DNA of 36,636 bases from a virus: positions 1-36,636 of IMG/VR virus record IMGVR_UViG_3300031702_000022. One strand, 5' to 3'. The notes below the pieces were generated by a model that saw nothing but the letters and a program-made list of their open reading frames with translations, ran no database searches and was not told the DNA's origin. Shown piece by piece: positions 26,438 through 28,329 of the stretch. The position numbers and the translations under genes were made by a program. The first letter of the stretch is position 1. Each line of letters starts with the position of its first letter.

Positions 26438-26472
26438 ATGCCCATAGATTGATAAGCCCACTAGGAGATCGC

Positions 26473-26943
26473 ATGACACGTATAAACACTATTGATGTAA
26501 AGCTATTGGCAGACCAGCATTTGATGGCGGAGTATCGTGAGCTACCTATGGTTAGCTCTGCATTGCGACGATCCCTTGCGGGTAAGAGTGCTGGTAATAA
26601 CGTGTTGTCAAGAATACCAAAGCAGTACACCCTAAATAAAGGCCATGTCCTATTCTTTTACAATAAAGGTAAGTTCTTATCCAATCGATACAATCAACTG
26701 ATTGAAGAGCTATATGATCGTGGTTACAGCATCACACCTAGTGATAGGGATGTATCGTTTGACGTGCACTTTGACCGACCTTCATTCGGCAATGACTGGT
26801 CTGCCTGTGATGCGGATCATGTCATCAACTGTGATCGTATATTGCAGCGTATCAGTGAAAAGCCCAACTGGTACAAGATGAAGGGTCGTGTGATCAGTGA
26901 GGGTGATTACATTGACATGATCAAGGCTCGATATTATAAGTGA
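26473..26943 (+). CDS. denV: Pyrimidine-dimer DNA glycosylase / AP lyase (T4 endonuclease V type)
   Basis: This 156-residue repair enzyme nicks DNA at UV-induced cyclobutane dimers. The N-terminus MTRINTIDVKLLADQHLMAE, then YRELP, is nearly that of T4 DenV. Thr2 is the catalytic amine after Met removal, and Arg3, His16, Arg22 and Glu23 are kept. Arg26 of T4 is Met here. KGHVLFFYNKGKFLSNRY, ELYDRGY and the end motif KPNWYKMKGRVI also match. It is slightly longer than T4 DenV (138). ATG 26473 follows TAGGAG, which fixes the N-terminus required for catalysis. It has its own promoter and terminator, which fits acquisition as a single-gene cassette. UV exposure in surface water is a plausible selective reason. 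Confidence 0.95.
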   Translation: MTRINTIDVKLLADQHLMAEYRELPMVSSALRRSLAGKSAGNNVLSRIPKQYTLNKGHVLFFYNKGKFLSNRYNQLIEELYDRGYSITPSDRDVSFDVHFDRPSFGNDWSACDADHVINCDRILQRISEKPNWYKMKGRVISEGDYIDMIKARYYK

Positions 26944-26968
26944 TGTGCGCATAAATAGTTGGCGTAAA

Positions 26969-27152
26969 TTTTAAAGGAAAAGTACTTTTTTAAAGGAAAA
27001 GTAACTTTCTATAAATTTAAAGGAAAAGTACTTTTTTAAAGGAAAAGTAACTTTCTATAAATTTAAAGGAAAAGTACTTTTTTAAAGGAAAAGCAGATTT
27101 GTAAAAATTTAAAGGAAAAGCAGTTTTTTATAGGAAAAGCAACTTTCTATAA
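26969..27152. repeat. Tandem array: four 46-bp units, each with two AAAGGAAAAG boxes
   Basis: AAAGGAAAAG boxes begin at 26973, 26992, 27019, 27038, 27065, 27084 and 27111, with a variant at 27130. Spacing alternates 19 and 27, giving an exact 46-bp period. The first two and a half units are nearly identical; the rest diverge (GTA to GCA after the box). Confidence 0.9.
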
Positions 27153-27175
27153 ATGTAAAAACATTCCATTTTCTC

Positions 27176-27216
27176 AAAAATTAATATTTTCTGTCAAAAA
27201 ATTAATATTTTCTGTC
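27176..27216. repeat. Two 21-bp direct repeats
   Basis: AAAAATTAATATTTTCTGTC occurs at 27176-27195 and 27197-27216, immediately after the 46-bp array. Confidence 0.85.
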
Positions 27217-27272
27217 AGAAAATAATCTGAAAAAAATCCAGAAGTCCAATACTTTTTAGCTATATTAAAACC

Positions 27273-27305
27273 CTTTTTAATAACTTTTTTGACAGTTATT
27301 AAAAG
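27273..27305. repeat. AT-rich inverted repeat
   Basis: CTTTTTAATAACT (27273-27285) and AGTTATTAAAAG (27294-27305) are complementary over 12 bases with one extra T in the left arm. The loop is 8 nt. Confidence 0.7.
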
Positions 27306-27362
27306 TGATTTTAATATGCTTTTTTATTCTAAAATATTGCTTGCAATTACTGTTAGGCGTTT

Positions 27363-27389
27363 TAAGCGCTTTTACTGGCTACCCTTGCC
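27363..27389 (+). repeat. Direct repeat copy 1 (TAAGCGCTTTTA...GCTACC)
   Basis: TAAGCGCTTTTACTGGCTAC, then CCTTGCC, resembles 28493-28518 (TAAGCGCTTTTATTGCTACC, then GTGCCC). One copy precedes each of the next gene groups (27592 and 28667). Confidence 0.55.
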
Positions 27390-27522
27390 TAGTGGGTTGG
27401 TATGGTGTCGATCGTTCCACCTTGCTGTTTTTAGTGTTTTTTTGCTACGTATAAGGAGTAAGGACGCCAAAAATCATGCCAACTATTGCCAGAAAATAAA
27501 TTAATTTATTTTAATAAATTGC

Positions 27523-27591: not shown

Positions 27592-28329
27592 ATGAGAATC
27601 AAAAAACCTTTAGGCGTAGTCGTATATGACGGACCGTCAATGTTAGACGGTCAACCGATTATTGTAGTGGCTACCCTTGAAAGTTCAAACGCCAAAACGG
27701 GCAACATGGTTCAGACGTGGATACTGGCAAAAAATACTAATCCGGTCGAAGCGATCAAAACAGGATTAGACCTTTCAACTTGTGGTTCGTGCGTCCATAG
27801 ACGATACCTAGGCGGCGCGTGCTATGTTAACGTTGGTCAAGCCCCTCTTTCTATATTTAAGACTTTTCAGGCGGGAAAATACCCAATTGATTCCAAGGAT
27901 ATGGACCAGTTTTTTAAAGGCCGATCGATCCGGTTTGGTTCCTACGGTGACCCGGCGGCTGTTCCTGTTAGCGTTTGGAAGCGTTTAAAATCACTAGCGC
28001 ACGCTACCACTGGTTACACCCATCAGGCTGGGCACAAGAATTTTAACCCTGATATTTTAAAATATTGTATGCTTTCTGCCGATACTCCGCGCCAAGCAAT
28101 GGCGGCGCACAAAAAGGGAATCCGGACTTTCAGAGTCAAAACCCCAGAAAGTGATTTTTTGCCCAATGAGATTGAATGCCTTTCGGATTCTAAGGGCTTA
28201 AGCTGTATACAGTGCAAAAAATGCAACGGCGCAACCAAAGGTAAAAACATTGCTATAAATATTCACGGCAAGCTAAAAGGCCGATACACCAAAAAATACA
28301 GTGCCGCTAATATTATCGCCGTAGGGTAA
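27592..28329 (+). CDS. Conserved Cys-motif phage protein (CGxCxHR / YGDPAAVP / TGYTH family)
   Basis: This 245-residue protein belongs to a family I recognise from many phages and environmental sequences but whose role I do not know. It shows GVVVYDGPSMLDGQPIIVVA, DLSTCGSCVHRR, ACYVNVGQAPLSIF, IRFGSYGDPAAVPVSVWKRL, TGYTHQAG, SADTPRQA and, near the end, CIQCKKCNG. Two Cys clusters suggest metal or Fe-S binding. ATG 27592 follows AGGA; the longer in-frame start lies in the promoter. It is the first gene to the right of the iteron-like array, so an initiator-type role is conceivable but not supported by a motif. Confidence 0.65.
   Translation: MRIKKPLGVVVYDGPSMLDGQPIIVVATLESSNAKTGNMVQTWILAKNTNPVEAIKTGLDLSTCGSCVHRRYLGGACYVNVGQAPLSIFKTFQAGKYPIDSKDMDQFFKGRSIRFGSYGDPAAVPVSVWKRLKSLAHATTGYTHQAGHKNFNPDILKYCMLSADTPRQAMAAHKKGIRTFRVKTPESDFLPNEIECLSDSKGLSCIQCKKCNGATKGKNIAINIHGKLKGRYTKKYSAANIIAVG

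Follow-up and report, generated by a model that had tools for sequence, protein, structure and literature searches.

Related phage families and radical SAM enzymes

PHROG 2554 is a catalogued phage protein family that is annotated as unknown function. Its profile comprises 529 positions, some 280 of which, at the N-terminus, are absent from the 245 aa protein described here, and it also takes in the DUF7227-type protein of phage PAK_P1 as well as gene 1 of phage P-SSP7, which is likewise of the DUF7227 type. DUF7227 (PF23872) proteins share with the family a three-cysteine site, a four-cysteine site and the KTG, GD, YTH and HG motifs, but their first site starts with CX3C instead of CX2C and in comparison their N-terminus is shorter. 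GP88 (PF17338, PHROG 1392) has the same order of motifs, the same three plus four cysteines and, like the family, occurs at the genome ends of Roseobacter phages; it differs in the spacing of the first cysteine site and has no direct Pfam match to the family. A further family that aligns with GP88 is DUF5131 (PF07505, Gp37/Gp68), which we take to be radical-SAM-like.

The radical SAM layout is characterised by a cysteine loop after strand 1 and a GGEP motif after strand 2, and a plan of three plus four cysteines resembles those radical SAM enzymes that carry an auxiliary cluster. CX2CX2C in combination with a distant cysteine is the usual signature of a [4Fe-4S] cluster and not of zinc.

Among the papers listed under DUF7227, GP88/PF17338, PHROG 2554/1392, Gp37Gp68 or P-SSP7 with radical SAM, none describes the family. 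The excerpt of a transcription study of pelagiphage HTVC027P, which has a GP88 gene, names no such gene (PMC12753301), and that of a further paper concerns other genes (PMC11797047). Since the family itself is already catalogued as PHROG 2554, with DUF7227 nearby, what is new here is confined to the proposed fold, the proposed chemistry and the union with GP88.

A PHROG 2554 gene in a viral contig

The gene under study is located in the window, a stretch of 36,636 nucleotides from a virus (IMG/VR record IMGVR_UViG_3300031702_000022; Table 1). Its reading frame is uninterrupted from ATG to TAA and is preceded, just 5' of the ATG, by the purine-rich, ribosome-site-like sequence aggcaggaaatt; on the antisense strand the directly opposite frame is interrupted by stop codons. 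The product is a small protein with a basic C-terminal tail, and the motifs CGSCVHR, ACYVNVGQAPL, RFGSYGDPAAVP, TGYTH and CIQCKKC that had been read from the DNA in the original prediction are all found as written in its translation.

By profile the protein belongs to PHROG 2554, which it matches over residues 7-231 (E 1.3e-69). Pfam DUF7227 gives 14.4 bits (E 0.029), short of the gathering cut-off of 27 bits, and matches 19 of 22 family members at E <= 1, with a best E-value of 2.8e-4. The radical SAM models of Pfam match neither the 245 aa protein nor any of the 22 members at E <= 1, and the same two sets give no match to DUF5131 or to the zinc families. GP88 has no match at E <= 1 for the protein and is not among the five families matched by the 22 members. 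NCBIfam returned nothing for the protein, for one GP88 protein or for one DUF7227 piece, and a sequence search of solved structures with the protein gave nothing convincing (best E 0.46 and 0.27). The Pfam, NCBIfam and solved-structure searches thus gave no clear match to a characterised family, the outcome that would have spoken against the earlier claim of a Cys-cluster phage family encoding an enzyme or a metal-binding protein; that claim is supported.

Table 1 Position of the gene, its motifs and the neighbouring repeat array in the window
Feature	Position	Strand	Basis or remark
PHROG 2554-family gene, predicted two-cluster Fe-S radical-SAM-like barrel	27592..28329	+	245 aa; PHROG profile, alignment, model
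Strand 1 of putative barrel, residues 40-46	27709..27729	+	DSSP on model
First Cys site, C64-x2-C67-x9-C77-Y78	27781..27825	+	three Cys and Tyr in 84/84 rows
R114-x-G116-x-Y118-G119-D120-P121...P125	27931..27966	+	end of strand 2, position of radical SAM GGEP
TGYTHQ, residues 140-145	28009..28026	+	end of strand 3; H144 invariant
S162-A-D164	28075..28083	+	end of strand 4
Second Cys site, C196-x8-C205-x2-C208-x2-C211	28177..28224	+	between strands 5 and 6; candidate auxiliary [4Fe-4S] cluster
Array of four in-register 46-bp direct repeats	26967..27150	.	repeat search; context, no family feature

Predicted structure and nearest folds

Fold prediction, which had been proposed earlier as a check, gave a confident AlphaFold2 model (pLDDT 95.5, pTM 0.92) whose nearest solved folds are radical SAM enzymes, at weak scores. 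DSSP places the later strands at residues 40-46, 112-118, 138-143, 160-163, 179-183 and 219-223 with helices in between, an order that fits a partial (β/α)6 barrel, although the fold matches are weak, with a best Z of 4.2 for this model and 6.1 for the model of GP88. The three-Cys site is placed in the model between strand 1 and a long helix formed by residues 84-93. In the model strand 1 is followed by a cysteine loop, as in radical SAM enzymes, and strand 2 by a motif of the GxxGD type at the place where those enzymes have GGEP. The predicted arrangement of the motifs resembles that of radical SAM enzymes in which an auxiliary cluster is present.

In Foldseek searches of the PDB neither the family model nor the GP88 model (pLDDT 92.9) had a match at E <= 0.001. 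Among viral models, the same program recovered named DUF7227 proteins (E 2.7e-7 and 1.7e-3, both with a probability of 1.00) and, from a haloarchaeal virus, a GP88 protein (E 1.4e-3, probability 1.00).

VIA-align was used to align the family model with 995 chains, 18 of which reach a Z of at least 2. Radical SAM enzymes fill rows 1, 2, 3, 5 and 6, that is five of the top six, a count that carries no base rate for radical SAM chains. The first row is the PFL activase 3cb8 (Z 4.2, rmsd 4.3, 144 residues aligned); further matches are PFL activase 3c8f (Z 3.9, rmsd 5.2, 149 aligned), the viperin-like enzyme 9dgw (Z 3.6, rmsd 5.1, 142 aligned) as well as a thioether-forming sactipeptide enzyme and PqqE (5why and 6c8v, Z 2.4 each). 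The GP88 model is headed by spore photoproduct lyase (Z 6.1, rmsd 3.8, 148 aligned), followed in rows 2-4 by viperin-like enzymes (5.4 and 5.4) and BtrN (5.0); judged by their titles, ten of its first 13 rows are radical SAM enzymes, and five of 998 chains reach a Z of at least 5. PFL activase, viperin, spore photoproduct lyase and BtrN are therefore the nearest solved folds of one or the other model, but with Z at 4-6 they fall short of 7-8, the best values that this tool typically returns even for models without a clear match, and the comparison points only weakly to radical SAM folds, as nearest and not as strong matches.

Profile comparisons between the families

Profiles were prepared from nine DUF7227-type sequences, 18 GP88 rows, 13 DUF5131 sequences, 24 MoaA sequences, 24 of the NrdG2/QueE type and six spore photoproduct lyase (SPL) sequences, the last from eight loci. 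The NrdG2/QueE, MoaA, DUF5131 and SPL profiles come from sets that were chosen as a whole by a Cys-motif rule and length. In hhalign the family profile aligns with DUF7227 at a probability of 97.0% over 194 columns (E 1.1e-10; the profiles are shallow and such pairwise E-values are not equivalent to database E-values), DUF7227 with GP88 at 86.8% over 174 columns, and GP88 with DUF5131 at 91.5% over 102 columns. The direct comparison of the family with GP88 gives 83.3% over only 64 columns around the second Cys site. A locus that was reached by the DUF7227 model is itself GP88 (E 4e-23) and also matches DUF7227 (3.1e-6).

As far as the profiles can follow it, the chain from the family through DUF7227 and GP88 ends at DUF5131. 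The latter scores 0.5, 0.6 and 1.0% against MoaA, NrdG2/QueE and SPL, respectively, while the family has no direct profile match to DUF5131 (0.6%), MoaA (0.2%) or NrdG2/QueE (0.1%), and the SPL profile remains at 0.2-0.4% with the three phage families. The only other sign toward radical SAM is the alignment of DUF7227 with NrdG2/QueE at 19.6%. MoaA and NrdG2/QueE, the positive control, align at 98.9%, and SPL reaches 59.4% with MoaA and 34.5% with NrdG2/QueE. Reversed-profile controls of all 15 pairs range from 0.1 to 2.5%; in the pairs DUF7227 with MoaA and GP88 with MoaA the reversed control scores above the true profile (2.5 vs 1.0% and 1.8 vs 0.1%). Direct profile homology of the family to radical SAM families was consequently rejected, the Pfam, NCBIfam and hhalign comparisons all being negative.

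Cysteine sites and the nature of the metal

Conservation was assessed in an alignment of 84 rows, composed of the window protein and 83 loci less than 80% identical. The latter remained of 127 loci once members at least 80% identical to one already kept had been dropped; L032-L037 and two low-scoring partial loci are excluded. Cysteines 64, 67, 77, 196, 205, 208 and 211 are present in every row and belong to 20 invariant columns that also include H144, H225, R114, G116, Y118, G119, P121 and P125. The members were gathered partly with the patterns NAKTGNM, G[TAS]YGDP, close variants and six stretches including CIQCKKCN, and because these served as search patterns the alignment overstates the conservation of the NAKTGNM, G[TAS]YGDP and CIQCKKCN-type motifs; none of the search patterns included the first-site cysteines.

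In the first site the C64-C67 spacing is constant, whereas the gap between Cys67 and Cys77 varies from 6 to 48 residues and is nine in 62 of the 84 rows. All rows accordingly read CX2C, 6-48 residues and then CY, and the radical SAM motif CX3CX2C is not found in them. The C205-x2-C208-x2-C211 spacing of the second site is fixed throughout the alignment. In the GxYGDP motif D120 is found in 83 of 84 rows and the remainder is invariant, in wording that differs from GGEP. The pattern of three plus four cysteines recurs in all nine DUF7227-type sequences, where the first site reads CX3CX5-6CY, and in GP88 all 18 rows agree in seven Cys columns, with a first site of the form C...CX2CYA.

In the choice between zinc and Fe-S that was raised in the original prediction, the cysteine pattern, three and then four with CX2CX2C, together with the nearest folds points to Fe-S as the probable metal centre. 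A zinc-ribbon or simple DNA-binding reading is not favoured and is retained as a rival in the shape of a structural metal protein, with two zinc sites or one zinc and one Fe-S site, that would bind nucleic acid or a host protein without radical chemistry. The basic C-terminal tail, the small size of the protein and the negative direct profile comparison with radical SAM families would all suit such a protein, but we regard it as unlikely, since CX2CX2C with a distant cysteine is usual for [4Fe-4S] and not for zinc, the first site offers three cysteines and not four, the invariant Arg, His, Ser and Gly and the nearly invariant Asp at the strand ends look like an active site, and the nearest folds are those of radical SAM enzymes.

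Still less probable is an Fe-S enzyme that uses the same barrel without SAM, for instance an Fe-S-dependent lyase or redox protein. The non-canonical first Cys site and the lack of a direct radical SAM profile match agree with it, but the GDP motif occupies the position at which radical SAM enzymes hold SAM, and the plan of three plus four cysteines is like that of radical SAM enzymes that also possess an auxiliary cluster. Taken jointly, a zinc protein or an Fe-S protein that does not use SAM has a real, if minor, chance of being the correct answer.

Proposed radical chemistry

The reading that we consider fairly probable is that the gene product is an Fe-S enzyme, divergent but radical-SAM-like, from a superfamily carried by phages and comprised of PHROG 2554 including the DUF7227-type proteins, with GP88/PHROG 1392 as its sister. 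Within it the fold and the Fe-S part are likely; the target and the role of the enzyme are a guess that is offered tentatively. The protein would work like a radical SAM enzyme without being one by membership, because it lacks CX3CX2C and has no match among radical SAM profiles. With the motif missing and all direct profile comparisons negative, it should not, on present evidence, be filed as a member of a radical SAM family.

In the proposed mechanism Cys64, Cys67 and Cys77 would hold a [4Fe-4S] cluster with one iron open for SAM, and the GDP loop at strand 2 would stand in for GGEP in holding SAM. Cys196, Cys205, Cys208 and Cys211 would provide all the ligands of an auxiliary [4Fe-4S] cluster. 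Reductive cleavage of SAM would then yield a 5'-deoxyadenosyl radical, which may modify a target that occurs in hosts of very different kinds, most likely a nucleotide, a nucleic acid or a component of translation. The enzyme would act early in infection, in host takeover or in the evasion of defence.

It is possible, if rather doubtful, that PHROG 2554/DUF7227 and GP88 together constitute a virus-specific branch of radical SAM chemistry, in which the three-Cys site is non-canonical and stretchable and the auxiliary cluster is built in, and that as infection begins these proteins are delivered in order to rewrite a molecule common to mycobacteria, enterobacteria, cyanobacteria, SAR11 and haloarchaea. 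The proposal offers a concrete and testable chemistry for a widespread phage family without an assigned function, and makes the family a testable candidate tool for host takeover. If it is true, an oxygen-sensitive radical enzyme is carried by phages whose hosts differ widely, perhaps for use in the opening phase of infection; its target would be a weak point common to these hosts, and the range of radical SAM Cys motifs would be widened.

Genomic position and timing

The surroundings of the gene were compared in 131 loci, many of them short and some duplicated (L065 is the L007 contig and L098 the L016 contig). A terminase large subunit gene, whose representatives match PHROG 38, is located within 3.5 kb in 61 of the 131, upstream in 60 and downstream in one. 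Of the 44 loci with a type one terminase, 43 have it upstream and 43 have it on the strand opposite to the family gene; in all 17 loci with type two it lies upstream and shares the strand of the family gene. Primase/helicase genes follow downstream on the same strand in 16 of the 131 loci. In the window the terminase gene (32948) is downstream of the family gene on the same strand and not upstream.

The gene lies within 3.6 kb of the record end in all 39 of a set of hand-selected phage records, 38 of which come from the 60 rows of one listing and one from a second listing; 36 are from Mycobacterium or Gordonia phages, many of them alike, a linear topology was seen for six, and the row of phage LUZ100 is a remnant. 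Left out of this count are 22 rows of Yersinia and Pseudoalteromonas phages, of the Klebsiella/Proteus/Raoultella type, of Rhodobacter RcXuper, of Roseobacter DSS3P8 and of Microcystis phages, as well as the rest of the second listing, records in which the gene is often away from the end or the start of the record is possibly arbitrary. Roseobacter phage CRP-4 has GP88 as gene 1 and CRP-125 has it as its last gene, a place that in CRP-118 is taken by a member of PHROG 2554, as though either type could replace the other in Roseobacter phages. CRP-118 and CRP-125 are assigned to the Autographiviridae and CRP-4 to the Zobellviridae; GP88-type proteins are also encoded at or next to the genome end in CRP-171 and CRP-113.

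Proximity to the terminase gene or to the genome end suggests an early role. The remnant in Pseudomonas phage LUZ100 (L033, 843-983), which corresponds only to query residues 8-54, lies in the early region, where it is preceded by two host promoters, P1 and P2, and where terminator T1 separates P2 from most of its frame. The LUZ100 study attributes P1-P3 to early genes and connects the region with host takeover (PMC10134795). The description as early is not valid everywhere, because the homologue in Ma-LMM01, ORF 072, falls outside the published early class of gp054-gp063 (PMC5780444), assuming that the gp numbering is the same.

Distribution of the family

Homologues of the 245 aa protein are present in 148 of 50,697 phage records and cover at least 80% of the query in 147 of them; identity to the query is below 60% at the best place in all 148. 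The phages with relatives infect Mycobacterium (61 records), Klebsiella (29), Gordonia (28), Microcystis (8) and Roseobacter (4), among others, and in the rows inspected (40 and 60 of the 148, overlapping) the annotation is mostly 'hypothetical protein'. A DUF7227 query matches 186 records, which may overlap with these 148. In viral contigs, among the matches listed, a relative is encoded in 575 of 599 pattern-matched stretches, the best 80 of which were kept.

Scattered copies occur elsewhere, in 19 loci among species genomes and in six of 72,556 plasmid records. A bacterial home of the family was considered and rejected: a single one of 289 genomes of one class was positive, and this was the genome that had seeded the search. 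The Pfam DUF7227 model matched none of 274 genomes, in a scan whose controls were silent as well and which therefore does not indicate absence.

In three Klebsiella phages (OY978784.1, OY979426.1 and OY978796.1) the family match overlaps the annotations tail sheath, baseplate and tail fibre, unlike in other Klebsiella phages, which have a hypothetical protein at this place; the annotation coordinates have perhaps been shifted. In a Deltaproteobacteria MAG (L132, 9824-12007) the family domain is contained in an open frame of 728 aa, the C-terminal part of which extends beyond the domain by about 380 aa and has no Pfam match at E <= 0.01. The DUF7227 gene of Pseudomonas phage PAK_P2 (58392-59053, L254/L255) extends across two overlapping frames, and PAK_P1 has one annotated CDS; the PAK_P2 arrangement may be a natural split, frameshifting or a sequencing error.

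Sequence context in the window

Between the repeat array and the gene there are a perfect tandem pair of 21-bp units (27176-27217) and a 24-bp inverted repeat (27262-27317), and the whole interval 26967-27317 is AT-rich and lies at the cumulative GC skew peak. The gene had been described as the first one after the array, which holds for substantial ORFs, but a 71 aa ORF with a TTG start (27289-27504) intervenes. The promoter of its own that had been attributed to it is not borne out, as the six sigma-70-like sites in 2 kb compare with 5.4 +/- 1.9 in shuffled sequences and are thus at chance level; the best upstream site is at 27289-27317. Nor did the neighbourhood comparison uphold the array as a feature of the family, only one small ORF neighbouring the gene in the window having a homologue near the gene, in one of 131 loci.

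Just before the array, 26449-26943 encodes a pyrimidine dimer DNA glycosylase of the T4 endonuclease V type (PF03013, E 8e-15); as far as the 131 loci show, its link with the gene is not a feature of the family. A DNA-repair enzyme that would act on UV lesions in the manner of spore photoproduct lyase, together with the adjoining glycosylase, is hardly probable, for although this neighbour and the best fold match of the GP88 model lend themselves to it, no glycosylase homologue lies close to the family gene in the 131 other loci (flanks often short), members of the family are spread over phages whose hosts differ widely, and a common fold shows no function.

Elsewhere in the window, 12505-14109 matches PHROG 1745, 'DNA transfer protein' (E 3.6e-188), and the N-terminus of its product shows, below the Pfam cut-off, a weak sigma-70 region 4-like helix-turn-helix.
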